Assembly: GCF_002894645.1 (NCBI RefSeq)
Contig: NZ_NCQY01000009.1
Location: 395,676 to 459,675 of the forward strand
Direction: 5' to 3'
Origin: Salinibacter altiplanensis
GTDB lineage: Bacteria > Bacteroidota > Rhodothermia > Rhodothermales > Salinibacteraceae
Length of the DNA: 64,000 nt
Positions 4,044 through 22,418 of this stretch are shown piece after piece. The notes beneath the pieces are model-generated. The model did no database searches. It had not been told where the DNA came from and worked only from the letters and a program-made list of their open reading frames with translations. The number at the start of each line of letters is the position of its first letter. Positions within the stretch are counted from its first letter, which is position 1. The translations under genes and the position numbers were made by a program.

Positions 4044-4075
4044 TTCGTACGGAGGATTTCAGTTCTGCGGAGAGA

Positions 4076-7000
4076 CTAAAACTGGACATCCAGGCCTCCC
4101 GTGACGGTCCGTGTCCGGGGGAAGACATCGTTGTCAATCCCGACCCCACTCGTCTCTCCAATTTCGGGCTCCGGACCGCTGTAGCCGCTCAGCACGAAGA
4201 CATTGCTCACACTTCCGTATAGACGGAGCCGATCGACGCCAGGAATCCGGTCGAAGCTATACCCCAGCGTGATGTTGTCCATCTTCAGGAAAGAGGCATC
4301 CTCCACGTAGTGGTCGGAAAAATACTGGGGCTGATCGAAATTCGTCTCCAACACCGACTCGTGGAGGTTCGAAGGCGCGAATTCGTCCGCACGATTGTAC
4401 GTCCCTAGGTTGGACGCAATGTTGTTGTACACGTGGTTTCCGAGCTGAGCCCGGAGAGAGAAGCTCACATCAAAGCCATCGTACCGCACCTGGGAGGTAT
4501 GCCCAAACGTCCAGTCGGGCTGGGGGCTCTTGTAGGCCGTGCGGTCTTCGGACGTGACCTCGCCGTCCCCGCTCGTGTCCTTGTACATGTCCGCCAAGTT
4601 GACCTCTCCGTCCCCGTTGTGGTCCACGTTGTCAGTCAGGGGGTCGCCATTCTCATCCGTCTTGTGACGGAATACGTAGAAGGAATTGACCGGCTCTCCC
4701 TCTTGGAGGATTTGGACCTGGTTCCCAACCCCTCCACTGATTCCTCCGGTCCGAACCCCGGAGCTGAAGTTCGTGAGCTTCGTGAGTTCGTTGTCGTTCG
4801 TGGAGGCGTTGAACCGCGCGTTGTAGGAGAAGTCCTCGGTTTCGTAGACGGCGGCGTCTACGCTGAACTCAATTCCTGTATTCCGGACGGATCCTACGTT
4901 CGTCAGCACCTGATCCGACAGGTTGGCGCCGGCCGGGACGATGCTCGAGAACAGCAGGTCGTTGGTCTCCTTTCTGTAATACTCGACCGACCCCGTAATG
5001 CGCCCCTCGAAGAGCCCGTAGTCGGCCCCAATGTTGTAGGAGGTCGTCTCCTCCCACTTCAGGTTCTGATCCACGGCGCTTGGACGGATGGTCGTGAGGA
5101 ACTCATCGCCAAACTGGACCCGCGCTCGTTGATTGCTTAGCTCGAAGAGACGCGAATACTGGAAGTCGCCGATCTCCTGGTTTCCGGTAATGCCCCAGGA
5201 CCCTCGAATTTTGAGGCTCGTGAGCGTTTCGGAGAACGGCTCCATGAAGTCCTCATTGTGAACGCGCCAGGCGACGGCCGCGGAGGGAAAGGTCCCCCAC
5301 CGGTTTTCAGGGCTAAACCGGGACGATCCGTCTCGTCGGACCGTGGCCGTAAGCACGTACTTGTTGGCCAGCGTGTAATTGACGCGACCGAAGCCGGAGA
5401 TCAGGCGGCTGGGGGTCTCACTAACGAAGGTATTCACCTCAGAGGCAGGGAGCGTGCTGTTCTCTCCGAGCAGATTCGAGGACAAACCAGACGCCGAGAT
5501 CTCCGGAAATTTGTTCAGGTCGTCCTGATACGAATACCCTGCCGTGACGTCTACCTGACTGCTGAGACCCTCAAACTCGTTTTGGTAATTGAGCGTCGCG
5601 TCCAGCAGTCGCGTGAACCGGGTAAAGTTCGCCCGGTCCACCTGGCCCGGATTCGCGGCTTCGACCTGCCCTCGCTCGTTGGTCGGAATGAACCGCTGCC
5701 GCTCTCCCGTCGATACGTCGTAGCCCAGATTCACGTCGGCACTGATTCCGTCCACGAACGCCGGGTCGTAGGTAAACTTGAAGTTTCCGACGCTCCGGTA
5801 CGTATCCCCCGTTTCGTCCTGCAGATCGAGTGTCGCGACGGGGTTGTTCTCTGCTTCGTTTGAGAATTCCCTCCACTCAAAGTACCCCGTCTGCTCGTTG
5901 CGTTCGGAAACCACCGGCTGCGTGGGGGCAAAAACGGCGGCCGTCTCAATGACGCTCGGCGCGTACTGATCGTCCGTTCTCGATCCCCGAACGTTGATGT
6001 CGAGGTCGAGCCGGTCGTCGAGAAACGGGCGATTGTACTTCACGGAGGCGTTTACCCGCTGGGTCTCAGACGTCCTCAACACGCCTTCCTCGTTCTGGTA
6101 CCCGAGCGCGATTCGGTATCGATCCCCTTGTTCAGACCCTCCCGAAAAACTCAAAGAGTGCTGCTGACCGAGTGCTCGCTCGAAGATCTCGTCCTGCCAG
6201 TTTGTATTGGCGTCCCCAAGATCGCCCGTCAGATTCGGAAACTGCTCACTGATGACCTCGCGGTATTGCCGGGCGCCTAGAACGTTTCGGGTTCCCGTTG
6301 TATTGGTGGACGATACCGATCCACTGTAGGAGATTCGGGTCTGCTCACCGTCCCCCTGTTTGGTCGTGATCAGGACCACCCCATTTGCCCCACGGGCTCC
6401 GTAGATGGCCGCGGCGGATGCGTCCTTCAGAACCGTGATGTCCTGTATTTCATTCGGGTTCAGAAAATTGAGGGGGTTTCGCCCTTCCGAAAGGCCACCA
6501 GGGCTGTGTGGAGTGTCATTCAGCGGAACACCGTCGATCACGAAGAGGGGCCGGTTACTGGCGTTTATGGAGGTGCCTCCCCGAATCCGAATAAACGTCT
6601 GTCCGCCCGGCCGTCCCGAGTTGGACTTGATGTTCAGACCAGCAACCTTCCCCTGTAAGAGTCGGTCCGCGCTGACCGTGGGCACTTTGTTGAAGTCCTC
6701 ACTACTGACCTTATTCACGACGCCCGTCACGTCGCCCTGCTCCTGCTGTCCATACCCGACGACCACCAGCTCGTCGATCTGCTGGGCGGCCGGGGCCAGG
6801 GCCACGTCAACCGTCGTGCGCCCCGCGATGGCGACGGCCCGTGACTGAAACCCGACAAATGAGAAGCGCAGCGAGTCCGTGTCAACGGGCACCGCCAGGC
6901 TGTACTGCCCCTGGGGCCCCGTGGCCGTCCCGACGGTGCTGCCCGGCACAGACACATTCGCGCCCGGCAGTGGCGAGTTGTCGTCCGCCGATGTGACAGT

Positions 7001-7093
7001 GCCACGAATCTGTTGCTCCTGCGCATGGGCCGTCCCCACACAGAGGGCCAGGCCCAAGACCGCGAGCGTCAGGATCGAGTGTCGGCATTTCAT
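4076..7093 (-). CDS. SusC/RagA-family TonB-dependent outer-membrane transporter
   Basis: This is the outer-membrane channel that imports the ligand bound by the SusD partner using TonB energy. It is 1005 residues long, normal for the family. Features in order are a signal peptide (residues 1-24), a carboxypeptidase-like regulatory beta domain (about 28-110, with DNSPLPGANVSVPGS), and a DELVVVGYG motif (about 108-116) leading into the plug. The plug contains LLQGKVAGL and RGGTSINASNRPLFVIDGVP. A long beta-barrel follows and ends in the terminal Phe (DVQF) expected for barrel insertion. It is the first gene of the susCD operon. Two LacI-type palindromes lie 68-93 bp upstream, so repression by the adjacent LacI regulator is very likely. 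Confidence 0.95.
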   Translation of the reverse strand: MKCRHSILTLAVLGLALCVGTAHAQEQQIRGTVTSADDNSPLPGANVSVPGSTVGTATGPQGQYSLAVPVDTDSLRFSFVGFQSRAVAIAGRTTVDVALAPAAQQIDELVVVGYGQQEQGDVTGVVNKVSSEDFNKVPTVSADRLLQGKVAGLNIKSNSGRPGGQTFIRIRGGTSINASNRPLFVIDGVPLNDTPHSPGGLSEGRNPLNFLNPNEIQDITVLKDASAAAIYGARGANGVVLITTKQGDGEQTRISYSGSVSSTNTTGTRNVLGARQYREVISEQFPNLTGDLGDANTNWQDEIFERALGQQHSLSFSGGSEQGDRYRIALGYQNEEGVLRTSETQRVNASVKYNRPFLDDRLDLDINVRGSRTDDQYAPSVIETAAVFAPTQPVVSERNEQTGYFEWREFSNEAENNPVATLDLQDETGDTYRSVGNFKFTYDPAFVDGISADVNLGYDVSTGERQRFIPTNERGQVEAANPGQVDRANFTRFTRLLDATLNYQNEFEGLSSQVDVTAGYSYQDDLNKFPEISASGLSSNLLGENSTLPASEVNTFVSETPSRLISGFGRVNYTLANKYVLTATVRRDGSSRFSPENRWGTFPSAAVAWRVHNEDFMEPFSETLTSLKIRGSWGITGNQEIGDFQYSRLFELSNQRARVQFGDEFLTTIRPSAVDQNLKWEETTSYNIGADYGLFEGRITGSVEYYRKETNDLLFSSIVPAGANLSDQVLTNVGSVRNTGIEFSVDAAVYETEDFSYNARFNASTNDNELTKLTNFSSGVRTGGISGGVGNQVQILQEGEPVNSFYVFRHKTDENGDPLTDNVDHNGDGEVNLADMYKDTSGDGEVTSEDRTAYKSPQPDWTFGHTSQVRYDGFDVSFSLRAQLGNHVYNNIASNLGTYNRADEFAPSNLHESVLETNFDQPQYFSDHYVEDASFLKMDNITLGYSFDRIPGVDRLRLYGSVSNVFVLSGYSGPEPEIGETSGVGIDNDVFPRTRTVTGGLDVQF

Positions 7094-7160
7094 AAGTCGG
7101 ATGTTGGGTCGGTGATTCAGGATCGGATCAGGGGGACAGCCGCCTCGTCGGTCCCTGGAA

Positions 7161-7186
7161 GTAAGCGCTTACACGAAAGCGCTTAC
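7161..7186 (-). promoter_or_regulatory. tandem LacI-type operators before susC
   Basis: Two palindromic sites lie side by side: GTAAGCGCTTAC at 7161-7172 (perfect) and GAAAGCGCTTAC at 7175-7186 (one arm differs at one base). Their centres are 14 bp apart. The CG-centred palindrome is the classic LacI/GalR-family operator form. They sit between the lacI 3' end and the susC start, in susC promoter territory. Confidence 0.85.
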
Positions 7187-7191
7187 ATTGA

Positions 7192-7218
7192 AACAAAAAA
7201 GCCAGTGTCCTGGGGGGC
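7192..7218 (-). terminator. possible terminator of the lacI gene
   Basis: On the minus strand, just past the regulator stop codon, a short stem (CCAG, loop GACA, CTGG) is followed by a run of six T and then GTTT. The stem is weak, but the T-run and position fit transcript ending just before the susC operators. Confidence 0.5.
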
Positions 7219-7226
7219 ATCGTTCC

Positions 7227-8309
7227 TCACGCCTCTCTCCACGTGAAGCCGGCCGATGCGGCTTCCTGTTCGGGATGGCCGCCGCACGTCCGCCGCACGA
7301 CGAGTTCCGGGGAGAACACGGTGCTCGACACCGGTCCCGCGTCCGTATCGTCGATGCGTCGCAGGAGCGTTCGGGCCGCCCGGGCGCCCATCGTGCGGGC
7401 GGGCTGGCGGAGCGTCGTGAGCCCGGCACACCGGCTCAGCTCAAGATCGTCGAACCCGACGATCGCGAGGTCCTCCGGCACGCGGAGGCCCTGTTTCCGA
7501 ACGGCTTCCATGGCCCCCAGTGCCTGCATGTCCGACGCGGCGAACACCGCGTCCGGCCGGGGATCGCGCTCAAGAAGGGTCTTCATGGCCCGGTAGCCGC
7601 CCTTTTCGGAAAACGCGAATGGCCGTTCGTTGCTCGCAGCGATCAGGTCGTCCCGCACCGTCCGGCCGTCGTCCCGCAGTGCCTGTTCGTAGCCTTTTCG
7701 TCGGGCACGGGCCGGAGGCGGGTCGTACTCTACGGTGATGTGCCCGATGCGCTCGTGCCCCAGGTCGATCAGGTGCTGCGTCGCCTTGTATCCTCCCTCT
7801 TGGCTGTCCACGACGAACGACTCGAACTGTGGATGGTCGCCATCCGCGAGAACGACCGCCCGGTTGGTCTCCGCCAGGCGATCGGCCCATTCGCCCGTCA
7901 GCGGCATCGAGAGCAAAAAAATACCGTCGTTTCGTCCAGGCTGGAGCGCCCGAGCCATGTACGTGTTGAGGGACTCCGGATCGGGCTGCTCATGAATGCG
8001 GTCCTGAGGGTTCGCGGGCGCATGAATCGTGAGATCCATGTCCCGGTCCGCGAGGGCGTGCTGGATGCCCCGCATCACGTGCATGTAGAAGTAGTTTGCC
8101 ACGACCGGCGCCACGACCGCAATCTGGTTCGTGTGCTGTCGCGCCAGGTTCTGTGCCGAAGCATGGGGCCGGTAGTTTAGGGCCGTCGCGGCGTCGAGTA
8201 CATGCTGCCGCGTGTCTTCACTGACCCCGGATTCGTCGTTGAAGACCCGAGACACCGTCGCCGTCGACACGTCCGCACGCTCCGCGATGTCGTAAATGGT
8301 TGTCGACAC
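7227..8309 (-). CDS. LacI-family transcriptional regulator
   Basis: This is a sugar-responsive repressor. The N-terminal helix-turn-helix reads TIYDIAERADVSTATVSRVF, followed by the hinge helix (YRPHASAQNLARQ) and a periplasmic-binding-protein-like effector domain ending near FDDLELSRCAGLTTLRQP. The frame is open to an ATG at 8375, but a GTG at 8307-8309 places the HTH about three residues from the start, as is normal. It also leaves the palindrome at 8348-8359 outside the coding region, so GTG is preferred (360 residues). The gene lies next to susCD and divergent from a sodium symporter. All three units carry matching palindromes upstream, implying local and autogenous control. The inducer is unknown. 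Confidence 0.92.
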   Translation of the reverse strand: MSTTIYDIAERADVSTATVSRVFNDESGVSEDTRQHVLDAATALNYRPHASAQNLARQHTNQIAVVAPVVANYFYMHVMRGIQHALADRDMDLTIHAPANPQDRIHEQPDPESLNTYMARALQPGRNDGIFLLSMPLTGEWADRLAETNRAVVLADGDHPQFESFVVDSQEGGYKATQHLIDLGHERIGHITVEYDPPPARARRKGYEQALRDDGRTVRDDLIAASNERPFAFSEKGGYRAMKTLLERDPRPDAVFAASDMQALGAMEAVRKQGLRVPEDLAIVGFDDLELSRCAGLTTLRQPARTMGARAARTLLRRIDDTDAGPVSSTVFSPELVVRRTCGGHPEQEAASAGFTWREA

Positions 8310-8347
8310 GGATGAACTGGACGGAACATGGTGCAAGGTTTGATTTC

Positions 8348-8359
8348 GTAAGCGCTTAC
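8348..8359. promoter_or_regulatory. LacI-type operator before lacI
   Basis: A perfect palindrome GTAAGCGCTTAC, identical to the site at 7161-7172. It lies 39 bp upstream of the preferred GTG start of the regulator gene, so it probably serves autorepression. If translation began at 8375 it would be inside the coding region, one reason to doubt that start. Confidence 0.8.
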
Positions 8360-8391
8360 ACCGTAATACTTTCATAATGCAATGTCAAGTC

Positions 8392-9025: not shown

Positions 9026-10603
9026 ATGTCCCCCGACTTTCCGCTTGCAACTCTGGACCTGGCCATCATCGTCGGGTATTTCGCCCTTGTTGCGATCATC
9101 GGGTACGTCGTGGCCCAGCGCGTGGAGAGCGGGGAGGACCTCTTTTTGGCCGGGCGCACGCTCGCATGGGGCACCATCGGGTTTTCGCTCTTCGCGTCGA
9201 ACATTTCGAGCACCACGATGATCGGACTCGCGGGGGATGCCTACCGCACGGGCATCGCGGTGTCGAACTACGAGTGGATGGCCGGCGTGGTGCTCGTGTT
9301 TATCGCTGTCTTTTTCGTGCCTTTCTTCATCCGGTCGGGCCTTACCACCATTCCGGAATACCTGGAGAAGCGGTTTGACGTCCGCTCCCGGAAATACTTC
9401 TCGGGGCTTACGATCTTTACGAGCGTCATTATCGACGCGGCAGGGGGGGTGTACGCGGGGACCGTCGTACTGCGCACCTTCTTCCCGGAGTTGCCGTTCG
9501 TGCCCACAGCCCTCGGCCTCGCCCTCGTCGCGGGTGTGTACACGGCGGCGGGCGGCCTCGCCGCGGTCGTCTACACCGACATCCTGCAGGCCATCATCCT
9601 GCTGATCGGCTCCACGTTCATCGCCGGCATCACGTTCGCCGAGTTCAACTTCTCGTGGGCAAACGCCACGGCGCAGTTGCCGGAAAACCACCTGTCGCTC
9701 ATGCGGCCGATGGACGCGGAGGGCCTGCCCTGGCTCGGCACGCTCGTGGGGGTGCCCATTCTCGGCTTCTACTACTGGGGCCTCAACCAGTACATCGTGC
9801 AGCGCATCCTGGGTGGGCGCGACCTGAATCATGCCCGGTGGGGGGCCATGCTCGGAGGGATTCTGAAGCTGCTGCCGCTCTTCATCATGGTGCTGCCCGG
9901 AGCGTTCGCGCTGCAGCTGTATCCCGACCTTGGCAACCCCGACCAGGTCTTTCCCACGCTCGTGACGGACCTGCTCCCGGTGGGCGTTGTGGGGATCGTG
10001 ATGGCCGGCCTCATCGCCGCCATCATGTCCACCATCGACTCCACGCTCAACTCGGCCTCCACCCTGGTCACAATCGACTTCATCAAGCCCGGCCGCGAGG
10101 ACGTGTCGCCCGAAGAAACGGGGCGCATCGGGCGTGTCACTACCCTCGTGCTTATGCTCGTGGCGGCGGCCTGGGCCCCCATGATCCGCTACTTCCCGGG
10201 CCTCTGGAGCTACATCCAGTCTGTCTTGTCGTACCTGGTCCCGCCCGTCGTGGCCGTCTTTTTGCTCGGCGTATTCTGGCCACGCACGAATGCGAACGGG
10301 GCGTTTGCCACCCTGGTTGGGGGCCACGCGCTTTCGCTCACCGCCTTCGTCCTGAGCCAAATAGGGGTCATCGACCTGCACTTCACGATCATCGCCGGCC
10401 TCCTCACAGCCCTCTGCGTTGGGCTCCTCGTGGTCACCTCGCTTGCCCTGGGCGACGCTCCCGCCGAGGCAAAGACCGACGGCCTCACCTGGGCACATCG
10501 TGCATTCGAGACGGGCCCGGCGATGACCTGGTACAAAAACTACCGGATCCACGCGGCCACGGTGCTCGGCCTGACGGCAGTCATGCTCGTCGTCTTCTGG
10601 TAG
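9026..10603 (+). CDS. sodium:solute symporter, SGLT-like (SSS family)
   Basis: This inner-membrane carrier couples Na+ entry to uptake of a sugar or similar solute. It is 525 residues with about 13-14 hydrophobic helices, matching the SLC5/vSGLT family. Useful landmarks are GRTLAWGTIGFSLFASNISS near residues 43-62 (first core helix), GLTTIPEYLEKRF (about 107-119), the YYWGLNQYIVQRIL segment (about 250-263) that in vSGLT carries gate and sugar-contacting residues, and AAIMSTIDSTLNSASTL (about 331-347), which matches the helix contributing Ser to the Na2 site. The sugar is unknown, but the partner genes (susCD, LacI) make it likely the inner-membrane step for the same substrate. The start ATG is preceded by an operator-like site at 8900-8911. 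Confidence 0.92.
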   Translation: MSPDFPLATLDLAIIVGYFALVAIIGYVVAQRVESGEDLFLAGRTLAWGTIGFSLFASNISSTTMIGLAGDAYRTGIAVSNYEWMAGVVLVFIAVFFVPFFIRSGLTTIPEYLEKRFDVRSRKYFSGLTIFTSVIIDAAGGVYAGTVVLRTFFPELPFVPTALGLALVAGVYTAAGGLAAVVYTDILQAIILLIGSTFIAGITFAEFNFSWANATAQLPENHLSLMRPMDAEGLPWLGTLVGVPILGFYYWGLNQYIVQRILGGRDLNHARWGAMLGGILKLLPLFIMVLPGAFALQLYPDLGNPDQVFPTLVTDLLPVGVVGIVMAGLIAAIMSTIDSTLNSASTLVTIDFIKPGREDVSPEETGRIGRVTTLVLMLVAAAWAPMIRYFPGLWSYIQSVLSYLVPPVVAVFLLGVFWPRTNANGAFATLVGGHALSLTAFVLSQIGVIDLHFTIIAGLLTALCVGLLVVTSLALGDAPAEAKTDGLTWAHRAFETGPAMTWYKNYRIHAATVLGLTAVMLVVFW

Positions 10604-10865: not shown

Positions 10866-13800
10866 TTATCCTCCCCGGGTGGTCGCTGGCAATCGGACGG
10901 TAAATCGGCTCCCCTCCCCCTTCTCGGTATCCACCTCAATCGTTCCGTTCATCTCTTCGGTCGTCTTTTTCGTCACCGCCAGCCCCACCCCCGTGCCCTC
11001 ATATCGACGGCTGAACCCCTCGGACGCCTGTCGAAACGGGTCGAAGAGGACCTCGGCCACCTCCGGGTCCATTCCGATGCCGGTGTCTTCCACCTCCAGC
11101 CGGACCCCCTCTTCTCCCCGATCGGTCCGTACCCAAACGGTTCCGCCATCCTTCGTGTATTTGATCGCGTTGGAGAGCAGGTTCCGCATTATAATTTGCA
11201 CCCCTCCCTCGTCGGCCTCCGCCCGAGCGCTTCTCGCCTCCACCCGCAGGTCAATGTCTTTCTCTCGGGCCTTCGGAGCAAGTTCCTCCACGGCCCGCCG
11301 GGCCTCGGTGGCCAGCGCAACCGGTTCGGCGTCGAGCTCTAACTGCCCCGACTCCAACTTTGAAAGGTTCAGCACCCGCTCGAGTGTGCCGAGCAGACGC
11401 TTCCCGCTTTGTTCAATCCGGTCGGCACAGTCGGGCAGCGGGCTGCCCATCGGCAGGTCAATCTCGGTGGCCTCCGTGCCGGCCACCTCGGCAAACCCGA
11501 TGATCGAAGTCAAGGGGGTCCGGATCTCATGGCTCATGTTTGCGAGCAGGGCCGACTTCATGCGGCTCGCCTCCTCGGCCTCCTCCTTCGCGTCACGGAG
11601 GTCCGCCTCCCGCTCCAGACGATTAAGGACGAGGGAGGCGTACCCGGACAGCACCTCAATCAGGCGAAGATTGAACGGATCGAAGGCCTCGACCTTCGTC
11701 CTCCCGATGACCACGACGCCCCGTTGTCCGATGGGAACCGCAGCGGCAGTGCGAAGCTTTCCGTACTCAACGTCGTTGTCGAGGGCCCTCACGTCCTCCG
11801 CCACAACCGTATCGCCGGCACGTAGGGCCCGCGCCGAGAGGCTCCCTCCGCCCTTCGACCGACGCTCGGGCGAAGGCACCCCCAGCGCATACTCAGCCGT
11901 GGTCTGATCCGGGACGATGCTCTTCCCGTCCACGAATCCCGTGCTGCGGAGAGCGTAGTCGAAAATATTCCCAAGCAGCTCGTGAATGCGGGCAGACACC
12001 TCCTTCCGATCTTCGGCGGGGAGGAGACGGCGGGTGGCTTCGTAGAGGGCCTCAATCTTATCTCGACGCGCACGGAGGGCCTTCTCCTGCTCGAGCTCGT
12101 CGAGAACCACCGCCGCGTAGCTTCCAAGCACTTCTACCATGTGTCGGTCGAACGACCCGATTGCCTCGGGCTCCTGGGAGGCAACCGTGAGGGTGCCGTG
12201 CCGCCCCATCGGCACCACGACCCCGGATTGGAGGTTGCCGTAGTGGCTGGGGCGGGAATTCTGGGGGGCTTCGTCCTCGCGCCTCACCCCCACGTCCTCA
12301 ATCAAAAGCGTCTCGCCGGACCGATACGCCTCGGCGACGGGGCTCCGGCCGTCCACACGGAACGCCGGACGCTCGGGCACAAACTCGAAGTTCGTCTCGG
12401 ACACGTGGCCCACCACCAGGTCCCCGTCCTCCACGAAGCGCACCGATACGGCCTGGTAGCCAAGGGCCGTCCGGATGAGGCGAACGAGCACCTGCCCCAC
12501 GGCCTCCTCGCTGGACGCCCGGATGAGGCGATCGGCCGTCTCGTACAGTGCCTCGATCTTGTCCTGCCGTTCGCGAAGGACCCGTTCGCGTCGCTTCTGC
12601 TCGGTCACATCGGTCGCGTGGCCGACGAGCTGCTGCACGTCTCCCTCCATCATCACCGGCGCAATCCGGGTCCTCCAGTAGGTGATGTTTCCTTCGAGGG
12701 GAATTTTCTCCTCGTATTGCAGGGCCTCGCCCCGACGCACGCACGTCTCACACTTCGCCTCCATAAACCCCCCGAACTTCTCTCCGAAGATCTCACGGGG
12801 AGATCGCCCGGTCACACTTTCCGCAACGCGCCCAAACTTCTCCTCGTAGGCCGGGTTGACGCGCTCAATACGAAACTCGCCGCCGTCCCCCTGAACGTCG
12901 AGTAGGAAGAGGGGCTCCTGCGCGTTTTGGAACAGCGTCTCGGTCTGTTGGAGGCGATGCTCCCGCTCCTTTCGCTCGGTGATGTCGCGGATCGTTCCCC
13001 GGACGCAGACCACCTCCCCTCCGTCTCGCTGCGGTTCCCCCCGATCACGCACCCACCGCTCCGTGCCCTCATCGGTCCGCAGGCGCAGCTCAAGGTCGTA
13101 CGGCTCCCCCTCCTCCACGGCCCGGGTGACGGCCTCCTCGAGGGCGTTCTGGTCCTCGGGGTAATACTGTGCGAAGGCCTCTTCGGCCGTAAGCTCGTCC
13201 TCCACCGGGTGGTCGTGGATGCGGGAGGTCTGACGGGTGCCCCGGAAGTCGCCCGTCTTCGCGTCGTACTCCCACGCTCCAACATTGGCAATCTCTTGGG
13301 CCCGCTCGAACAGGTCGTTCTGGCGCTCCAGTTCCTCCTTGCGGCGCTTCCGCTCGGTGATGTCTGTCGCGTGGCCGACAATTTGTTGGACCTCCCCGTC
13401 CACGCGCACCGGTGCAATTCGTGTAAGCCAGTAGGTCGTTCCTCCGTCTAGGTCAATCTCTTCCTCGTACTCGAGGGATTTGGACTGCCGGGCGCACACC
13501 CGACACCGGGCCTCCATGAACTGCCCGGATTGTTCCCCGATGACCGATTGGGGCGAACGTCCCCGCACCTCTTCTGCGGTGCGTCCAAGCTGTTGCTCGT
13601 AGGCGGGGTTCACACGCCGGTACGCAACCCCAATTTCTTCCTCTGTCCGCTGGACATCGAGAAGAAAAAGCGCATCCTGTGCGTTCTGAAACAGGGCCTC
13701 GGTTTGCTGGAGCCGACGCTCCCGTTCTTTTCGGTCACTGACATCGCGGCCAATGCCCACCACCTGACGCCCCCCCTCCGGGTGCTCGATCGAGTTGCCG

Positions 13801-15026
13801 ACAAACTCGTAGACGACGGTCGTCCCGTCCCGGCGCAGAAGCGGGACTTCAACCTGCGCACTGCCGGCCGCGAACACTTCCGAAATCGTGCGTGCCAATC
13901 GCTCCTGGTCGTCCTCGGGCACAAAGTCGAGGGCACTCATCTCTGCAATCTCTTCGTCCGAGTAGCCGGTCACCTCGGCGGCGCGCTGATTCCACCGCTG
14001 GGGCTGAGCCTCTTCGTCGAGCGCAAAGAAGAGGTCGTCGATGTCATCGAGCAGTCGGTCGGTGTACTCCCGATAACGTTCAAGCGTCTGTCGGCCTTGC
14101 TCTCGCTCGGTTACGTCGCGGGACGAGACGACCAGCGCTTCGACCTGTTCTTTGGCGGTTTGCCCCTCCCCAGTCATGGGTCGAATCGTCCCTTCCACCC
14201 AGTAGGCCCGCCCCTCCCCGTCTGTCGACCCTGCTTCGTACTCTACGTACTCTCCCTCGGCGGCTCGTTCCACCCACTCGCGCACGTCGTCCCGGTCCTC
14301 CTCGTCCCACCAGGGGGTTTCCCAGAACAGCTGCCCGATGACCTCGTCTTTTTCGGCCTCAACGTAGCGGAGCGACGTCTCGTTGGCCTCCAGCAGTGTC
14401 CCGTCGGTTCCGAGCACCCCCACCATCATGCTCGGGTCCTGCAGGATTGCCTCGAATCGGCGGGACATTTCTTGCCGCTCCAGGGCAAGACGCTCGTGCT
14501 GGTGGGCGCGGCGACGGCGCCCCAGCTTCTCACTGATCATCTGCCGCAGATCGTCCAGTTGACGCTTCTGCGTCTCGGAGAGCGACCGCGGCTCGCGATC
14601 CACGACGGAAAAAATGCCGATCGTCGTCCCCTCCGGCGTTCGAATCGGCATCCCGGCGTAAAAGCCCAATTCGCTCTCCTGGGGCAGTGCGCCCGGTCCC
14701 GCCTCATTTGCGGCGTCCTCCACCACGAAGAGGCCATCCGTTTCGAGTGCGCGGGTGCACCACGACGCCACGGCACGGCCCTCGGCGCGGCCAAAGCCGG
14801 TACGGTCCCTGAGCCACCGCCGGTCGCTGTTCAGAAAAGCCACAAACGCCGTCTCAACATCCAACAGGTCAGCGGCCAGCCGCATCATCCGGCCAAACGC
14901 CTCTTCCGCCCGGGCCCCACGAATGTCGTACTGACGGAGAGCCTCGTCTGTCTCTCCCTCCACAGTGTCTTCGAAGATGGGGGCCTCCCCGTTCTGCCCT
15001 AAACTCGGAGATGAGAAATCGGTCAT
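10866..15026 (-). CDS. hybrid GAF/PAS sensor histidine kinase (1386 aa)
   Basis: This is a large soluble sensor kinase with no membrane segment seen. Domains in order are a GAF (about 40-175), five PAS/PAC units (about 190-310, 325-440, 445-570, 575-690, 695-815), two further GAF units (about 825-975 and 985-1130), HisKA with the H-box MSHEIRTPLTSIIGFAEV (His near 1165), and a HATPase with NLLSNAIKYT, DTGIGMD and GTGVGLAV. The third and fifth PAS units are close duplicates and each carries a CxxC pair (CRVC, CETC). The last GAF units start with ALYEATRRL-type helices like haloarchaeal Bat proteins. The ATG has an AGGTGAG ribosome-binding sequence. There is no receiver domain and no adjacent response regulator, so the output partner is unknown. 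Confidence 0.9.
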   Translation of the reverse strand: MTDFSSPSLGQNGEAPIFEDTVEGETDEALRQYDIRGARAEEAFGRMMRLAADLLDVETAFVAFLNSDRRWLRDRTGFGRAEGRAVASWCTRALETDGLFVVEDAANEAGPGALPQESELGFYAGMPIRTPEGTTIGIFSVVDREPRSLSETQKRQLDDLRQMISEKLGRRRRAHQHERLALERQEMSRRFEAILQDPSMMVGVLGTDGTLLEANETSLRYVEAEKDEVIGQLFWETPWWDEEDRDDVREWVERAAEGEYVEYEAGSTDGEGRAYWVEGTIRPMTGEGQTAKEQVEALVVSSRDVTEREQGRQTLERYREYTDRLLDDIDDLFFALDEEAQPQRWNQRAAEVTGYSDEEIAEMSALDFVPEDDQERLARTISEVFAAGSAQVEVPLLRRDGTTVVYEFVGNSIEHPEGGRQVVGIGRDVSDRKERERRLQQTEALFQNAQDALFLLDVQRTEEEIGVAYRRVNPAYEQQLGRTAEEVRGRSPQSVIGEQSGQFMEARCRVCARQSKSLEYEEEIDLDGGTTYWLTRIAPVRVDGEVQQIVGHATDITERKRRKEELERQNDLFERAQEIANVGAWEYDAKTGDFRGTRQTSRIHDHPVEDELTAEEAFAQYYPEDQNALEEAVTRAVEEGEPYDLELRLRTDEGTERWVRDRGEPQRDGGEVVCVRGTIRDITERKEREHRLQQTETLFQNAQEPLFLLDVQGDGGEFRIERVNPAYEEKFGRVAESVTGRSPREIFGEKFGGFMEAKCETCVRRGEALQYEEKIPLEGNITYWRTRIAPVMMEGDVQQLVGHATDVTEQKRRERVLRERQDKIEALYETADRLIRASSEEAVGQVLVRLIRTALGYQAVSVRFVEDGDLVVGHVSETNFEFVPERPAFRVDGRSPVAEAYRSGETLLIEDVGVRREDEAPQNSRPSHYGNLQSGVVVPMGRHGTLTVASQEPEAIGSFDRHMVEVLGSYAAVVLDELEQEKALRARRDKIEALYEATRRLLPAEDRKEVSARIHELLGNIFDYALRSTGFVDGKSIVPDQTTAEYALGVPSPERRSKGGGSLSARALRAGDTVVAEDVRALDNDVEYGKLRTAAAVPIGQRGVVVIGRTKVEAFDPFNLRLIEVLSGYASLVLNRLEREADLRDAKEEAEEASRMKSALLANMSHEIRTPLTSIIGFAEVAGTEATEIDLPMGSPLPDCADRIEQSGKRLLGTLERVLNLSKLESGQLELDAEPVALATEARRAVEELAPKAREKDIDLRVEARSARAEADEGGVQIIMRNLLSNAIKYTKDGGTVWVRTDRGEEGVRLEVEDTGIGMDPEVAEVLFDPFRQASEGFSRRYEGTGVGLAVTKKTTEEMNGTIEVDTEKGEGSRFTVRLPATTRGG

Positions 15027-15415
15027 GGGGACTCACCTGGAGTCGGAAGAAGCACCGGTGCATCCCCAACATATTGGTTCACGGAAAGTTTAACAACAGC
15101 CCTGACCGCCCCTCTCGGGAGGTAGCCTTCGTTTTGGGAGTTGGCTTGCTGATGAGGCTCCCCCCACGGACAGCGACGGAGTTGGGGCAGCCGGGCCCCG
15201 ATTCTCTGTTGTCCCAGTCACGAGGTGCCTTTCCGGTTTCTGGTCGGTGCTCGACCAATGGACCCGGACGCCCCCAATCAACACGGCGGCGAGGCACGCC
15301 CCGGGCGTACGTTTTCGGTGCAATTCGGGGCAGTGCTCCTCGGGTCGGGACCCAGTGTGGTCGTCTCCGGGAATCATCCGTGAGGCCGCGTGGGGAACAG
15401 ACATCAGGCCCCCAA
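15027..15415. other. gene-free intergenic stretch
   Basis: These 389 bases separate the kinase start from the phosphatase stop, both leftward. They should contain the kinase promoter; an AT-richer patch (TTCACGGAAAGTTTAACAAC, about 15077-15096) is the best place for it. No open frame here shows family features. Confidence 0.4.
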
Positions 15416-17185
15416 TCAGGGCCGTGCGTACTCGATCGTGTTCTCGTGGGTGCGCTCCGGCATGTCGGCCACGTCGCGTTCGATCATCTCGTTGGGCTCG
15501 CTGGGCCGCTTCACGAGGTCGAACGCGTCGTACGGTTCCCCCGTGGCGGTGTAGGACCGAAACGCCAAAGTGTCCCGACTGATGTGGACGACTTGGTAGA
15601 GCTGCGTATTCTCGGCGCCGCGCTCCATCTCGATTCCCTCGAACCGCTCCCAGCGGTCCGGCTTGATCTCGTACATCTTCGCCCCGCTCACGGAGTTGAC
15701 GTAGACGGTCCCACCCTCGGGGGAGCGCGCGCTCACACCCTGCGTCAGGTTTTCCGCCTGGCCTCGGGCGTAGGTGTGGTCGTGGCCCTGCATCACGAGG
15801 TCGACGTTGTGCTCGTCGAAGATCGGCCGCCATTCTGTCCGGAGGGCTTCGTTGGTGCGTCCCTCGCCGGACGAAAACATCGGGTGGTGGAAGGTGGCAA
15901 CGACCCAGCGGATCTCGTCGTCCTGCCGGGCATCCTTGAGCGTCGACCTCAGCCACTCGGTCTGCGTGGCGCGGACGTCCTCGTCGTTGCGGGCGGCCTC
16001 CGAGTTGAGGCCGAGGATGCGCATGCCCTGGTGGTCCAGGTAGTAGACCGTCTCCTTGAGGCCCCCCGGCCCGTTCTGCGGCAGTGTAAACTGCGGGCGC
16101 CAGTGGACGGACAGCTTCTCCGTGCTCTCCTTCTCCACCTCCATCAGGAACGCGCCGGTGAGCGTGGTGCCGTCCACCGACACGTCCCGGATCGGGTATT
16201 CAGTACCGTCCTCGCCGACCAGGGTGGCGGTGTAGTCGGGCGAGCCCTTCTCAATCGTGAGGGTGCCCACGTACTCCCCGTTGTCGACGTTGTAGGCCCA
16301 GGTGCCGACCAAGGACGCATCGCTGGACGACGAGGTGGCCTCACTGGTGGCCTCCAGCGGCTCGGGGTTGCCGTCCGGCTCCACGATGGTCCCCGTCATC
16401 TCTTGCCCAGAGGCCTCTACCTCCACGTCGAAGGTGTCCCGCGCCGTCCAGTGCTCGTAGCCCTCGTACTCGTGGTTGCCCGGCACGGCGATGTTGGGGA
16501 TCATGCCCTGGATAAAGCCGCCCCCCTCGTTCCAGTGGCCCCACTCGACGTTGCGGTGGGCGTTGTTGACGAGGTCTCCGGCGTGGAGCATGAAGCTCAC
16601 GCCGGAGGCATCCGCGTAGGCCTGCCGGACCAGGCGCGACCAGTGGGAGCGCACGTTGTTCTGCGCGTCCCCAAGGTAGATGAAGGAGAAGGGATCCGAC
16701 CCGTCGGCGGCCGTCTCGGCGTGGATCCACTCGCTCCAGCGGGTGCCGTCGCCGACGCGGTAGGCGTAGAGGGAGTCGGCTTCTAGCCCCTCGAAGGTGA
16801 CGGAGTGATACTTGGCCGGCACGTTGGCCTGATCCACCTGGTCGGCAGGGAGCGGGGTGGTCTGGGCGGGGACTGTGCGGGCCTCGGTGTAGAAGGAGGG
16901 CTCGGCGCGGGCCGGGGCAATCTGGGCCTTCGCGCCGGTGACCGTGGTGTCGGTACGCCAGGTCACGCTGAGGGTGGAGGCCGGGTTCTGGGCCCAGCTC
17001 AAGACGATCCGATCCGGGTAGGCACTGGGGGTCGCTGAGGGCAACTCGGAGTGCGAGTGGCCCGTGGCATGGCTGTGGGAATGAGAGGCAGTCCCCGACG
17101 TGGCGTCGGTGCACGACACCAGCCCGAAACACAGCGGGACGAGAAGAACGGCGAACACAATGAAGAACGAGGGAGCCTGGCGCAT
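15416..17185 (-). CDS. purple-acid-phosphatase-like metallophosphoesterase lipoprotein
   Basis: This is a predicted surface or periplasmic phosphatase. The start at 17185 gives a lipoprotein signal ending in LVSC (about residue 25); the frame extends upstream, but those residues lack signal character. A His-rich stretch (SHSHSHATGHSHS) follows the lipid anchor. Next comes an Fn3-like N-terminal domain typical of purple acid phosphatases (about 45-150; PDRIVLSWAQNP). The metallophosphoesterase domain carries YLGDAQNN, GDLVNN (about 202), GNHEY (about 235), FHHPMF (about 432) and GHDHTYAR (about 468). A beta-rich insert of about 100 residues, roughly 260-360, splits the catalytic domain. It lies downstream of a TonB receptor and a phytase-like gene on the same strand, which suggests release of phosphate from organic esters. 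Substrate unproven. Confidence 0.85.
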   Translation of the reverse strand: MRQAPSFFIVFAVLLVPLCFGLVSCTDATSGTASHSHSHATGHSHSELPSATPSAYPDRIVLSWAQNPASTLSVTWRTDTTVTGAKAQIAPARAEPSFYTEARTVPAQTTPLPADQVDQANVPAKYHSVTFEGLEADSLYAYRVGDGTRWSEWIHAETAADGSDPFSFIYLGDAQNNVRSHWSRLVRQAYADASGVSFMLHAGDLVNNAHRNVEWGHWNEGGGFIQGMIPNIAVPGNHEYEGYEHWTARDTFDVEVEASGQEMTGTIVEPDGNPEPLEATSEATSSSSDASLVGTWAYNVDNGEYVGTLTIEKGSPDYTATLVGEDGTEYPIRDVSVDGTTLTGAFLMEVEKESTEKLSVHWRPQFTLPQNGPGGLKETVYYLDHQGMRILGLNSEAARNDEDVRATQTEWLRSTLKDARQDDEIRWVVATFHHPMFSSGEGRTNEALRTEWRPIFDEHNVDLVMQGHDHTYARGQAENLTQGVSARSPEGGTVYVNSVSGAKMYEIKPDRWERFEGIEMERGAENTQLYQVVHISRDTLAFRSYTATGEPYDAFDLVKRPSEPNEMIERDVADMPERTHENTIEYARP

Positions 17186-17208
17186 TTGAGAGTAAGGATG
17201 GGTCGGAA

Positions 17209-17251
17209 GAAAACAATCACGCCCCTCCATCCCCGAGACAGGAGGAGGGGC
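17209..17251 (-). terminator. terminator-like hairpin after the TonB receptor gene
   Basis: On the minus strand, GCCCCTCC (17244-17251) pairs with GGAGGGGC (17221-17228) and is followed by GTGATTGTTTTC. It sits between the TonB receptor stop and the phosphatase start. It may end the upstream transcript fully or in part, which would lower phosphatase expression relative to the receptor. Confidence 0.5.
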
Positions 17252-17290
17252 GCGTGACGGCGCGAATGGGCTACGGTGCCGAGGGCCGGG

Positions 17291-20221
17291 TTAGAACTCC
17301 GCCGAGAAGCCGATCGTGACGGTACGGCCACTCAGGAAGTGATAGCCAAGGTTTTCTTCCTGCCCTTCGTACTCCACCTCCGGCTCATTGGTGACGTTCT
17401 CGATCTGGACCATCAGGGTCGGCTGCGCCAACACATCGTTGAATTCGTAGCTGGCGTTGACGTCCACCGTGGTGCGCTCCTTCACGTACGTGTCCTCCAC
17501 CGGGGTGTCGCCCAGGTCCAGCAGGTAGTCACCACGGTAATTTAGCGCGACGCGCGTCTCGAAGCCAGCCTTCTGAAAGTACGGAACGGCGTTGTACACC
17601 AGGTCCGCCTGCTCGAAGAACGGGAAGTCGCCCTCACGGCTGGGCACGTCGACCTCCGAGTCGGTCACCGTCAGGTTCGAGTTGAGCCCGAGGCCGTCGA
17701 AGGGCGCCGGCAGGAAGACGAACGGCTGCTGGTACGTGGCCTCCAGCCCGAGAATCGTGCCAAGGTCGGCGTTTCGCTCCTGCTCTCGCTGCACCCGATC
17801 GAAGGTGCGTCCGTCCCCAAAGGGGTCCTGGACGTTGCGCTCCTCACTCTCGAACTCGTAGATCGGGTTGTCAATCCGCTTGTAAAACCCAGCCACAGAC
17901 GCCAGCCCGCCACCTTCGAAGTAGTATTCAGCAGTGAGATCGAAATTCATCGCCCGGTAGGGCTCCAGATCCGGGTTGCCCTCGTTGATGCTGGCCCTGA
18001 GCTGATTGCCCGTGTCGTTGATCTCCACCTCGCTAAACGACGCTAAGTCGTCGTAGTCCGGGCGGCCGATGGTGTTGGACCAGGCGCCCCGGAATTTGAG
18101 ATTGTCGCGGGCGTCGAACGTGAGGTGCACGGACGGCAGCACGTCGGTGTAGGCGTTCTCGAAGGTCTCGCTACCAGTCTCGAACTCTCCACCTTCGTCG
18201 AACACCAGCTCGAATCGGGTCGAGGAGGTCGACGTATGTTCGAGGCGGACTCCTGCCAGTGCCGTCAGCGCCCCAAATTCGGCCGACGCCATCGCGTATC
18301 CCGCGTAGATGCTTTCCTCGTTTTTGGAGTCGTTCTCCGCGTCCTCTTGCGCAACCTCTTCCTCATTGAGGACGAAGGGGCTGTCTGAGTTCCGGCAAGA
18401 GCGGTCACCGGAAAAGCGCCGGTTCGACGGAGGGTTGCAGATTTCGTTGAGGAAGTCGCTGATAAAGGCATCGGTGTCGGCAAACGGCATGAGGGAGTTG
18501 TCGACCTGAACCGTTTGGACGCGGGGAGCTTGGTAGTCGCCCAGCGTGAGGCTTCCGTCGCCCTCGTAGATGTTTTCGATATCGGCCCCTTTCACTACCT
18601 TGTCCCGACGACTGAACTGCCCACCGACCTTGAGGTAGCCCGGGACCTCACTGAGGGTGAACGGCACCTGGACGTCGGTCTTGGCCGAGTAGGTGTTTTC
18701 CGTGTTCTCCTCGTATTCGAGGTCGATATCGTTGGCCGTGTAGTTGCTTCCGTCCCGTATGTATCTGGGATTCTCCGGGAAAAAGTCGAAGAGGAAATTA
18801 GACATGTCCGCGACGCCAGCGGCCTTTTCGGTTCCCTCTTCAAGCGCAAACTCCCCATCCGGCGAGAAGCCATCGAGCACCCCGCGGGAGTAGGTGCCAC
18901 TGGCCGACCAGGCAATCGAGTTGTCGAAATCGTGCTCGAATCCGGCACTGGTGCCCCAGAGCGACTCTTCTTCTTCGGTAAAGCTGAGGTCGACCTCTGC
19001 GAAGCCCTTGGGAAACCGTGCGCCGTTCTCAAATCCTGCGCCTGCCTCCAGCTCCTCCGGCTGCCCGAGCAAGGCATACTCCATTTCATTGTCGAGCTTC
19101 TCTTCGTCGGTATACGTGTAGTAGGGCCGCACGTAGACCGATGTTTGTGCAGAAGGACGCCAGTCGACGCTTGCGTTCAGAGCATATCGGCTTCGCCGGT
19201 TGGACTCGACGATCTGTTCCTGGGCCTCCGGAACGTTAGTGGTCGGCAGGCCCTCCTCCAGTGCGTATTCCCAGCTTTCGGCCTTGAGCCCAGAGGTTGT
19301 GAAGTCTCGACGGGAGCCGCTCGCGGACACAAGGACGCCGAACTGATCGTCCGCCCCGAACTTGATACCACCAGTCAGGTTGGCGCGGAACGGAGATTTG
19401 TTGTCCCGCAGCCCGCTAACCTGCTGGTCGTGGCTGAGTCCACGCACCGAGCCGAAAGCAAACCTTCCGTCGCGGTCGAACGCCGAGAGCGTGGAGATAT
19501 TGACCGACCCGCCGATGGCATTTCCCGGCATGTCCGGCGTCACCGCCTTCGTGACCTCGACGTTCGATACCATCTCGGCCGGCAGCAGGTCGAGCGCCGT
19601 GGCGCGCGACCCCGCAGTGGAAGCCATCGAGTTGCCGTTGAGCGTCACGTTGTTAAGGTTGGCGGCGCTTCCGCGAATCGAGACGAAGCGGCCCTCCGTG
19701 CGGTCGTTGCGCATCACGATGCCGGGCAGGCGCTGGACGGCCTCCGCCACGTTTTTCTCCGGCAGGTTGCCGATGTCGTCGGCCGAGAGGGCGTCGACCA
19801 CGTTCGGGGCCTGTCGTTTCTGATTCACCGACCGCATCTGGCTCTCGCGGAGGCCAGTCACGACGACCTCCCCCGCCTCGGTGACTTCGCTCCGCAGCTC
19901 AAGGGTCCGGGTAGCCGTCCGGTCGCCGCGTACCTCCACCGTGACGGTGGTGTCCTGGTAGCTGACGTAGGAGACAACGAGGCGTCGCGTGCCGGTGGGA
20001 ACCGCGCGAATCTTGAAGCGGCCCTCCGCACCCGTGGAGGCGCCGGTGGACGTGCCATCCACGATCACGTTCGCACCGGGCAGGGGCGTCCCGTCCCCCG
20101 CATCGACCACCCGGCCGGCCACGACGCCGGTGGACTGCGCCGCGGCGTTGGGCACGAGCAGCGAGGAGAGAGCAACGAAAAGGAGTGTTAGGAAGAGGAT
20201 GTATCGACTTTGGTTGGGCAT
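17291..20221 (-). CDS. TonB-dependent outer-membrane receptor
   Basis: This energised outer-membrane transporter has 976 residues from the preferred ATG at 20221 (MPNQSRYILFLTLLFVALSS), which begins the signal peptide; further ATGs at 20245 and 20299 are possible. Features in order are a carboxypeptidase-regulatory-like domain (about 30-110; GTPLPGANVIVDGTSTG) and a plug with VVDALSADDIGNLPEKN, VAEAVQRLPGI and RGSAANLNNVTLNG. That plug pattern is shared with the Caulobacter-type TonB receptor family (TIGR01782-like). A barrel follows, ending GFSAEF with terminal Phe. It has no SusD partner. It lies between a phytase-like gene and a phosphatase gene on one strand, so phytate or a phosphorylated breakdown product is the most reasonable ligand. 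That ligand is inference only. Confidence 0.9.
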   Translation of the reverse strand: MPNQSRYILFLTLLFVALSSLLVPNAAAQSTGVVAGRVVDAGDGTPLPGANVIVDGTSTGASTGAEGRFKIRAVPTGTRRLVVSYVSYQDTTVTVEVRGDRTATRTLELRSEVTEAGEVVVTGLRESQMRSVNQKRQAPNVVDALSADDIGNLPEKNVAEAVQRLPGIVMRNDRTEGRFVSIRGSAANLNNVTLNGNSMASTAGSRATALDLLPAEMVSNVEVTKAVTPDMPGNAIGGSVNISTLSAFDRDGRFAFGSVRGLSHDQQVSGLRDNKSPFRANLTGGIKFGADDQFGVLVSASGSRRDFTTSGLKAESWEYALEEGLPTTNVPEAQEQIVESNRRSRYALNASVDWRPSAQTSVYVRPYYTYTDEEKLDNEMEYALLGQPEELEAGAGFENGARFPKGFAEVDLSFTEEEESLWGTSAGFEHDFDNSIAWSASGTYSRGVLDGFSPDGEFALEEGTEKAAGVADMSNFLFDFFPENPRYIRDGSNYTANDIDLEYEENTENTYSAKTDVQVPFTLSEVPGYLKVGGQFSRRDKVVKGADIENIYEGDGSLTLGDYQAPRVQTVQVDNSLMPFADTDAFISDFLNEICNPPSNRRFSGDRSCRNSDSPFVLNEEEVAQEDAENDSKNEESIYAGYAMASAEFGALTALAGVRLEHTSTSSTRFELVFDEGGEFETGSETFENAYTDVLPSVHLTFDARDNLKFRGAWSNTIGRPDYDDLASFSEVEINDTGNQLRASINEGNPDLEPYRAMNFDLTAEYYFEGGGLASVAGFYKRIDNPIYEFESEERNVQDPFGDGRTFDRVQREQERNADLGTILGLEATYQQPFVFLPAPFDGLGLNSNLTVTDSEVDVPSREGDFPFFEQADLVYNAVPYFQKAGFETRVALNYRGDYLLDLGDTPVEDTYVKERTTVDVNASYEFNDVLAQPTLMVQIENVTNEPEVEYEGQEENLGYHFLSGRTVTIGFSAEF

Positions 20222-20454
20222 GCGTGGGGGGCGTTGCTGAGGCATGTGCGAGGGATAGGTCCACTGGGAGAACGAGCACCGACGAACAGGACTGAACACC
20301 GTTCATGTCCACCCACATAAGTACCAAGTCCAGATTACGCTTGTAGAACCCTCGTATTTCGATACATTGACGGTTCTGTTGTCGAAATGTAAACCCCTGA
20401 GCTCAGGCCCTCTTCCTTCCCAGATCTACTTCGAGAGGCCCCGACCGGACGACG

Positions 20455-21564
20455 TCACCCCGCGGACGACTGGACCGGGCAGTCCCTCGTCAGGCCCAGC
20501 GCCTCCGCAATGGCTGCCCAGGCGACGGCCACGGTGCTTCGGTCGTTGTGCACCGCGTAGACGGCCCCGTATTCGAAGTCGCCAAAGGCGCGCTCCGTTA
20601 CGAAGATGCCGTCGGTGTTGGTGACCGTTTTGCCCTGAAACACCCCGATGTGCGACAGGTCGGTACGGTCGAAGACGTGAAAGGCGTTGCTCTCTTCGGA
20701 CTGGTCGGTTGCGAGCCAGTACCCGCTATCCCCTCCGCACTCGTAGAGCATGAGGCCCTCCGCCTCGTGCCGAAAATAATCAGACGAGATCGTCGTCCCG
20801 GTGAAGGTACCCTCCAGGGTGTAGACCTTGATTTGGGCTTCCCCCTCTTTTTCCTCCGCGATCAGGAGCCGGTCGTGGGCGGGATCGGCCCAGATCGACT
20901 CCACCACCTTGAGCCGACCGGGGCCGGACGTGGCGCCGATGTTGCGCACGTGCTGGTGCCGCAGGGTGCCGTCCTCCACGGTAAAGCGAAACTGCTTGAC
21001 GCGCTGGTCCAGTGCGGACGGTGGCGGGACGCTCCCATCCGGCTCGGAGAAGGCATCGGTGACGTATAGGATGTACGTCCCGTTGTCGCTTTCGTAAACC
21101 GTGAGCCCGTACGGCAGCCGAAGGCGATCCTCTCCTTCGCCTGCCGCTCGGTGCCAGTCGAGCGGTGCCCCGAAGGCCCCCAGCGGCTCGAACGAGGGCA
21201 ACGAAACCACCTGTACGCGGCGGTTGTCACGCTCGACGACAATCATGAGGTCGTCGATCACCGCCACCCCATTGGGACGATCAAATTCACCCAGGTCGCT
21301 CCCGGAGCCGCCCACGCGTCGAAGGGGGGCCCCGGTGGTTGCGTCGTGCACCCGAATGACGTCGCCCGACTTTGCGGTCGAGAGCAGCCAGTGCTGGCCG
21401 TCCGGCCCGTGCCACACGGCCGGCGTGTCCACGTTGTCCCACGCGTCGCGCGGCGTCTCAAACGCCTCCGCCACCACCGCCGTGTCGCGCACTGCCGGCT
21501 GCCCCCTTGCGGCCCACGGAAGCCAGAGGAGCACAGCGAGGAGTAGGGCACCCAGTGCTCGCAT
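20455..21564 (-). CDS. beta-propeller phytase-like protein
   Basis: This is a predicted exported 3-phytase-type enzyme that would remove phosphates from inositol phosphates with calcium. It has a Sec signal (MRALGALLLAVLLWLPWAA). ATGs at 21597 and 21651 are also open, but the start at 21564 gives the best signal. The mature part matches the six-bladed phytase fold: VDTPAVWHGPDGQHWLLSTA early, RPNGVAVIDDLMIVVERDNR, LLIAEEKEGEAQIKVY, then EGLMLYECGGDSGYWLATDQ, SNAFHVFDR and NTDGIFV near the C-terminus. The last group mirrors the EGLTIY/GYLLAS/DTDGIDV series of Bacillus phytases. It is the first of three leftward genes, with a sigma-70-like promoter upstream. Family assignment good, activity unproven. 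Confidence 0.85.
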   Translation of the reverse strand: MRALGALLLAVLLWLPWAARGQPAVRDTAVVAEAFETPRDAWDNVDTPAVWHGPDGQHWLLSTAKSGDVIRVHDATTGAPLRRVGGSGSDLGEFDRPNGVAVIDDLMIVVERDNRRVQVVSLPSFEPLGAFGAPLDWHRAAGEGEDRLRLPYGLTVYESDNGTYILYVTDAFSEPDGSVPPPSALDQRVKQFRFTVEDGTLRHQHVRNIGATSGPGRLKVVESIWADPAHDRLLIAEEKEGEAQIKVYTLEGTFTGTTISSDYFRHEAEGLMLYECGGDSGYWLATDQSEESNAFHVFDRTDLSHIGVFQGKTVTNTDGIFVTERAFGDFEYGAVYAVHNDRSTVAVAWAAIAEALGLTRDCPVQSSAG

Positions 21565-21699
21565 ACGAGAGGACGAGAAGAGGGCGGAACGCAACATTGG
21601 CCGAGAATGAATCACGACGGAGGGAGACAGTGCGAAAAAACCATTTCGCAATGTACGGGTCGGCCTCAGCGAGCGTCTTTTCCGTAGGATTATTTTTCG

Positions 21700-21727
21700 A
21701 TTATAGAACCATAACCATAACCGTCAA
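21700..21727 (-). promoter_or_regulatory. sigma-70-like promoter for the phytase cluster
   Basis: On the minus strand, TTGACG (21722-21727) and TATAAT (21700-21705) are separated by 16 bp. The spacer contains GGTTAT repeats (GGTTATGGTTATGGTTC). It lies about 136 bp before the preferred phytase start codon. This is an unusually good match to the general bacterial -35/-10 consensus for this window. Confidence 0.65.
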
Positions 21728-22418
21728 GGAGACCTCCGTCCGTACGGATGGTCTCTCGTGGGTCGCTCCCTTCAGGTCAAGGAGCCTGTGCGGGCCTTCC
21801 TCGCAGGTCCTCGGCTTCGATACGGACGCATGACAATACAGTCATGCTTCGCGCAGGGGGGCTCGTGGGTGCCGCTACGTCACGGGCATGCGGGCCGGGA
21901 AGAGCCGGCCCCGCCTCGACCACAAGCGTTGAGTGAGTGCCCCCGCCACGATTGCGACGCCGGATGCGCTCAACGCCCGTGCACTCGACGCCCGCTCGGA
22001 GACCCCGAGACGGATCCGGATGTCCCTCCCTTCATCTGGGGGCGCCCACGCACGCGGTCGGACGCTAACGTGCCAGCGTTGAGGCCTTTTCCTCGGCGGT
22101 GCCCGGTCATCGCGGGCAGGGATTCGGGGCTGTCTGTGGCGCTGAGCCCGTGGCGGGCGGAGCTGTGCAGACAGGTCACGACCACGGAGGAAGCGGACGG
22201 GCCGTTTCACTGGACGGTGCGCAGAGGCGACAAGGCCCGCAAGACCCCTGGATGGTCTTGCTGCGTCGAGGCCGTTCGGGGGCTCGTGTCGCCGCGATGC
22301 CTCTCCACGGCACGACCGTTCCCCCAGCCTGCCCCCTAGAAAGCATTGCGCTCCGAAAAAATTGTCAACTTGCAAACCATTCGACGACTTTAACATCTAA
22401 ACAAGGCCCCACCGACCG

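Follow-up and report, generated by a model that had tools for sequence, protein, structure and literature searches.

A candidate organic-phosphate scavenging locus in Salinibacter altiplanensis: a divergent phytase-like gene, a TonB receptor gene and a purple-acid-phosphatase-like lipoprotein gene

Phytase genes that neighbor TonB receptor genes have been described in other bacteria, as an earlier sequence-only reading of the present locus had stated for aquatic ones. In Flavobacterium johnsoniae, both members of the phytase and TBDT pair Fjoh_1367/Fjoh_1368 are induced by phosphate depletion (PMC8115612), and a report on Citromicrobium bathyomarinum describes a TBDT beside a phytase, an arrangement read there as serving phytic acid uptake (PMC3400609). 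How members of the phylum bring in organic phosphate by way of TonB receptors is so far known mainly by inference. The present analysis concerns a 64,000-nucleotide stretch of DNA (the window) from the 3.59-Mb, 30-contig genome of Salinibacter altiplanensis, and the locus within it is a variant of the phytase and importer gene pair of related bacteria. The idea of a phytase working with a TonB receptor was already known; what is new is the divergence of the enzyme, the repeated reassembly of the cluster, and the element shared among the receptors. We consider it somewhat better than an even bet (roughly 0.6) that the locus is an outer-membrane system for scavenging organic phosphate.

Layout of the locus and the corresponding sites in sister species

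Three open reading frames (ORFs) without stops lie on the minus strand in the order phytase-like gene, receptor gene, purple-acid-phosphatase (PAP)-like gene (Table 1), bearing out both the number of leftward genes and the order given in the sequence-only reading. The next gene downstream of the PAP-like one encodes a large PAS/GAF histidine kinase (window 10866-15026) and is collinear with the sister species G162. Farther along, receptor-like, lipoprotein-like, and LacI-like genes at window 2433-8375 resemble, from a look at their sequences, a separate SusCD-type sugar locus.

Table 1. Features of the locus, in window positions
Feature	Position	Strand	Remarks
Beta-propeller phytase-like phosphatase	20455..21597	-	likely start ATG 21597 or 21564; stop-free ORF 20455-21651 (398 codons)
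TonB-dependent receptor, TIGR01782 type, without SusD partner	17291..20221	-	likely start ATG 20221; stop-free ORF 17291-20299 (1002 codons)
PAP-like metallophosphoesterase lipoprotein with insert of ~110 residues	15416..17185	-	likely start ATG 17185; stop-free ORF 15416-17230 (604 codons)
Conserved element 5' of the receptor gene	20311..20399	-	Alignment versus shuffles; model hits in five genomes, at receptors linked to phosphatases; between phytase-like and receptor genes
Sigma-70-like promoter candidate, 5' of the phytase-like gene	21700..21727	-	TTGACG-16-TATAAT
Non-collinear interval with the phytase-like gene (versus sisters G147 and G162)	20398..22329 (about 20398-22339 against G162)		blastn breakpoints
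Non-collinear interval with the PAP-like gene (versus sister G162)	14992..17291		blastn breakpoints

The window DNA was collinear with that of G162 over the symporter, the histidine kinase, the receptor with its upstream element, and the MarR-like gene, and collinearity broke at the two intervals that hold the enzyme genes. The other sister, G147, carries the receptor, symporter, and MarR-like gene at the same site without the phytase or PAP gene, and a gene that appears helicase-like from its sequence occupies the site of the phytase interval in the sisters. Read most simply, these breakpoints reflect the addition, apparently recent, of the two enzyme genes around an older resident receptor; the alternative is that both were lost in the sister species. 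Enzyme genes joining a resident receptor, as suggested here, would warn against taking a gene cluster for a single inherited operon.

The two phosphatase-like proteins

The phytase-like protein has a signal peptide and no lipobox. Against the Pfam Phytase model (PF02333) it scored 19.7 bits, below the gathering cut-off of 21, compared with 23.0 bits for its subfamily relative L026 and 138.4 bits for the canonical L034; it also fell far below the cut-offs of the NCBIfam phytase-like and ScyF models, and in a search with the single sequence NHL propellers ranked first and phytases matched weakly. The best match of a profile made from a 13-member alignment was the Bacillus-type 3-phytase 3AMR (E 6.9e-33, chain residues 20-337). 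As structure prediction from the single sequence reached a pLDDT of 46.7, a model obtained with AlphaFold2 from the 13-member alignment (pLDDT 85.5) was used instead. The predicted model has a six-bladed, phytase-like propeller fold, and Foldseek placed the Bacillus phytases 1QLG and 1POO among its top four matches (TM 0.66-0.72); since NHL propellers matched it equally well, the fold by itself is no proof of a phytase.

In Bacillus numbering, D55, K76, R122, Y159, E211, E227, E260, Q279, and D314 are retained and D56, K77, K179, and D258 are altered, these being positions of the catalytic and calcium-binding region, and the majority of the phosphate- and calcium-site positions are retained throughout the subfamily. 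The sequence-only reading had named loss of these sites in a structural model as an outcome that would tell against it; in the sequence mapping most of the positions survive and the four named are altered. Of the published beta-propeller phytase motifs (YG, EGXXXD or ESXXXD, DXEG, and DG; PMC12406696), the protein contains YG, ESIWAD, and DG, and reads EAEG at the DXEG position. Judged by profile and predicted fold, it is a divergent relative of the beta-propeller phytases, so that the earlier label of beta-propeller phytase-like stands on this evidence and falls short on the Pfam score. A phytase search of plasmids gave no match.

The same data bear on the proposal that the propeller is not an enzyme and instead binds substrate for the receptor at the surface or in the periplasm, as BtuG does for BtuB. 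The altered positions, the sub-threshold Pfam score, and the equal standing of NHL propellers among the model matches, with BtuG1 and BtuG2 ranking lower, would fit such a role; we nevertheless hold it to be quite unlikely, given that most phosphate and calcium positions persist across the subfamily and that the TM-scores to BtuG1 and BtuG2 were only 0.42-0.45.

In the PAP-like protein, the domains PF16656 (Pur_ac_phosph_N, 62.8 bits) and PF00149 (Metallophos, 49.9 bits) both scored above cut-off, and the lipobox LVSC near its start marks it as a lipoprotein. Its motifs are GDAQN, GDLVNN, GNHE, FHHP, and GHDH. GNHE, VVATFHH, and GHDH agree with the GNH[D/E], VXXXH-type, and GHXH motifs of purple acid phosphatases, whereas GDAQ and GDLVN stand where GDXG and GDXXY belong. 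Neither the GDXG glycine nor the GDXXY tyrosine, a metal ligand, is present in this protein or in the homologues examined. Because these two residues are absent, the product of 15416-17185 is, by its motifs, only PAP-like, and its designation as a strict purple acid phosphatase is unsupported; the purple-acid-phosphatase layout proposed earlier holds for the domains and fails at two ligand motifs. The insert of ~110 residues (about residues 257-368) is common to the genus and to G195, and homologues outside these lack it and match the protein as two pieces that flank it. Part of the insert (residues ~295-359) weakly matched segments of other proteins encoded in these genomes.

The receptor, its upstream element and gene linkage

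The receptor scored 585 bits against TIGR01782 (TonB-Xanth-Caul; curated cut-off 310), contains plug, barrel, and CarbopepD_reg Pfam domains, and has a likely start codon that aligns with the starts in its relatives. No SusD gene lies beside it, its neighbors being the phytase-like and PAP-like genes, in keeping with the earlier description of a TonB receptor without SusD partner. Matches to siderophore and B12 receptor models were weak, and could be taken to mean that the receptor imports a metal chelate such as ferric phytate or a siderophore, from which the phosphatases would release the metal; phytic acid can chelate iron (PMC3400609). We rate this account as very improbable, as the TIGR01782 score far exceeds those of the siderophore models and no iron genes were recognized beside the locus.

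In a receptor tree of 20 rows, the window receptor falls inside a clade of phosphatase-linked receptors with support of 100/100. The clade includes PAP-linked and two solo receptors of the genus, the paralogue from this genome, both G195 receptors, the phytase-linked L032 (G151), and the PAP- and phytase-linked L125 (G065), and the phytase-adjacent receptors L026, L027, L028, L031, L034, L035, and L036 from elsewhere in the phylum lie outside it. With G065 included, the wider clade holds phytase-linked members, and the idea that such receptors are unrelated to that of the window was dropped. Within the genus the window receptor is closest to that of G176 (69%), and the window PAP is closest to the second copy in its own genome (81%) and to G195 (75%), with congeners at 66-67%; the histories of receptor and PAP are discordant, and the locus is therefore a mosaic.

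The element upstream of the receptor gene (~89 bp) can be aligned to the sequences that precede the receptor genes of G147, G162, and G176 and each of the two receptor genes of G195, with alignment scores that 0 of 200 shuffles reached for each pair tested. Searched against eight genomes, a model built from the sequences only hit nothing beyond the regions upstream of the aligned receptors, the region upstream of the paralogous receptor (E 0.009; not used in building the model), and, in G147, a partial copy that precedes the ORF of the PAP-linked receptor by ~830 bp (E 0.14). A transposase-like ORF, so named from a look at its sequence, lies between this partial copy and the receptor ORF in G147 (L072:5997-6038, 6360-6836). 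Besides that in the window, copies are located at L070:4912-5000 and 9858-9941 and at L069:11996-12073, and the copy at L074 contains a near-perfect inverted repeat, GAACCGTCA-13-TGACGGTTC. The receptors behind the window, L070, and L069 copies share only about 30-45% protein identity, and an element common to receptors so divergent points to a common regulator of the phosphatase-linked receptors. Searched literally, its core pattern was present as a single copy in each of four genomes, and not in the numbers of a large regulon. Searches of the region upstream of the phytase-like gene, of the PhoB-like locus, and of G065 did not find the element, and the PhoB-like regulator itself was found below the curated cut-off only. 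The idea that the phytase promoter shares the receptor's element was rejected, local alignment being no better than with shuffles.

The promoter candidate upstream of the phytase-like gene, described earlier as strong, agrees with the sigma-70 consensus at 11 of 12 positions, but at the threshold used one such site was returned against 1.1 expected by chance; the main sigma factor in the phylum often uses other promoter sequences. Because the receptor carries an upstream element of its own that is absent upstream of the phytase-like gene, a single operon driven from 21727 appears doubtful, and the receptor gene probably has its own promoter.

Receptor genes adjoin phytase-like genes in L001, L026, L027, L028, L031, L032, L034, L035, and L036, and such pairs make up most of the phytase loci examined and recur across the phylum. 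Within the phytase subfamily, L001, L026, L027, L028, and L031 lie next to a TonB receptor and L029 does not, and the L030 locus stops at a contig end. Receptor-PAP pairs were found in L069, L070, L071, L072, and L073 (truncated). Such pairs occur in three other genomes and, as a second copy, in the window genome. This second copy (L069; G000:C10:42000-56336) is close to the end of a contig and has a transposase-like gene nearby, and its PAP and receptor are 81% and 43% identical to those of the window. In G176, G147, and G162, a conserved lipoprotein-like gene of 583-591 residues (L071:11594-13345, L072:11959-13734), fused in the ORF call of G162, comes after the receptor-PAP pair, and it is absent 3' of the window pair; its L072 copy has no Pfam match.

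Larger groupings were found in G065, of another family, with a tight receptor-PAP-phytase run (18-bp gap, 4-bp overlap), and in the metagenome-assembled genome SW_9_63_38 (G195), with a five-gene phosphatase island of phytase, receptor, metallophosphoesterase (MetallophosN/C), receptor, and PAP; in G140 a calcineurin-type phosphatase of a different kind adjoins a phytase-like gene. Most PAP homologues elsewhere have neither a receptor nor a phytase neighbor. Among the relatives searched, four congeners and two other members of the family, none has the phytase-like gene, and the exact three-gene order of the window was found in no other genome examined. The gene order is not kept in relatives, an outcome that the sequence-only reading had named as refuting; with most of the phytase site positions surviving, its refuting conditions gave a mixed picture. 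A literature search for a link between PAP and TonB in Bacteroidetes returned nothing.

These patterns could also mean that the functional unit consists of the receptor and the PAP-like enzyme, with some other phosphate ester as substrate (a nucleotide, a lipid head group, or glycerophosphate), and that the phytase-like gene is a recent neighbor that has a separate promoter and shares no substrate with them. In the genus, receptor-PAP pairing is more common than phytase, the receptor's upstream element is its own, and the phytase interval is not collinear with the sisters, all of which agree with such a unit; the G065 run, the G195 island with all three genes, and the presence of phytase-linked receptors in the same clade do not, and we judge it unlikely.

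Proposed function and comparison with described systems

The scavenging reading is supported by the recurrence of both receptor-phytase and receptor-PAP linkage, to which the G065 run adds, and it holds without a strict PAP or a single operon from the phytase promoter. What the enzymes do, what they act on, what is imported, and how the locus is regulated are inferred, and the mechanism would be as follows. The exported phytase-like propeller, presumably calcium-dependent, and the PAP-like metallophosphoesterase lipoprotein would strip phosphate from an organic ester, possibly inositol phosphates. The receptor would carry this ester across the outer membrane, either intact, partly dephosphorylated, or bound to calcium, which would keep phosphate from escaping into the medium; the gene neighborhood suggests that inositol phosphates are possibly what is imported. 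The 3AMR profile match, the alignment-based model, the retained sites, the linkage, the receptor clade, and the F. johnsoniae precedent speak for this reading; the Pfam score, the four altered positions, the NHL matches, the PAP motif losses, the gene order that is not kept, the phytase without the receptor element, and the mostly unlinked PAP homologues speak against it. A bolder version, in which a distinct beta-propeller phosphatase subfamily with altered inositol-phosphate specificity is served by a dedicated class of SusD-free receptors under their own shared operator and not a general Pho box, is tentative and on balance rather doubtful. As one receptor clade is tied repeatedly to two kinds of phosphatase and to one conserved element, both substrate and regulation are directly testable.

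With the Bacillus beta-propeller phytases (3AMR, 1POO, 1QLG), the window protein shares the predicted fold, the YG and DG motifs, and most catalytic and calcium positions; it differs in the D56, K77, K179, and D258 equivalents, in an identity of ~19% to the Bacillus structures, and in a first half that is NHL-like. The Pedobacter ACJ clade shares its ES-type EGXXXD motif. Purple acid phosphatases (PDB 1XZW, 1KBP) have in common with the PAP-like protein the N-terminal PAP and metallophosphoesterase domains and the motifs GNHE, FHHP, and GHDH, whereas the window protein has GDAQ for GDXG, has GDLVN for GDXXY with the tyrosine absent, and is a lipoprotein with the insert described above. The receptor-phytase neighborhood of C. 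bathyomarinum resembles that of the window, although this organism is Alphaproteobacterial and no PAP-like partner is mentioned in the passage on it (PMC3400609). Compared with Fjoh_1367/Fjoh_1368, the window has a phytase of a divergent subfamily under the Pfam cut-off, an added PAP-like phosphatase, and a receptor from a different clade than the phytase-adjacent receptors of most loci examined; it resembles that pair in a phytase gene that adjoins a SusD-free CarbopepD_reg TonB receptor and in its proposed role in organic-phosphate uptake.
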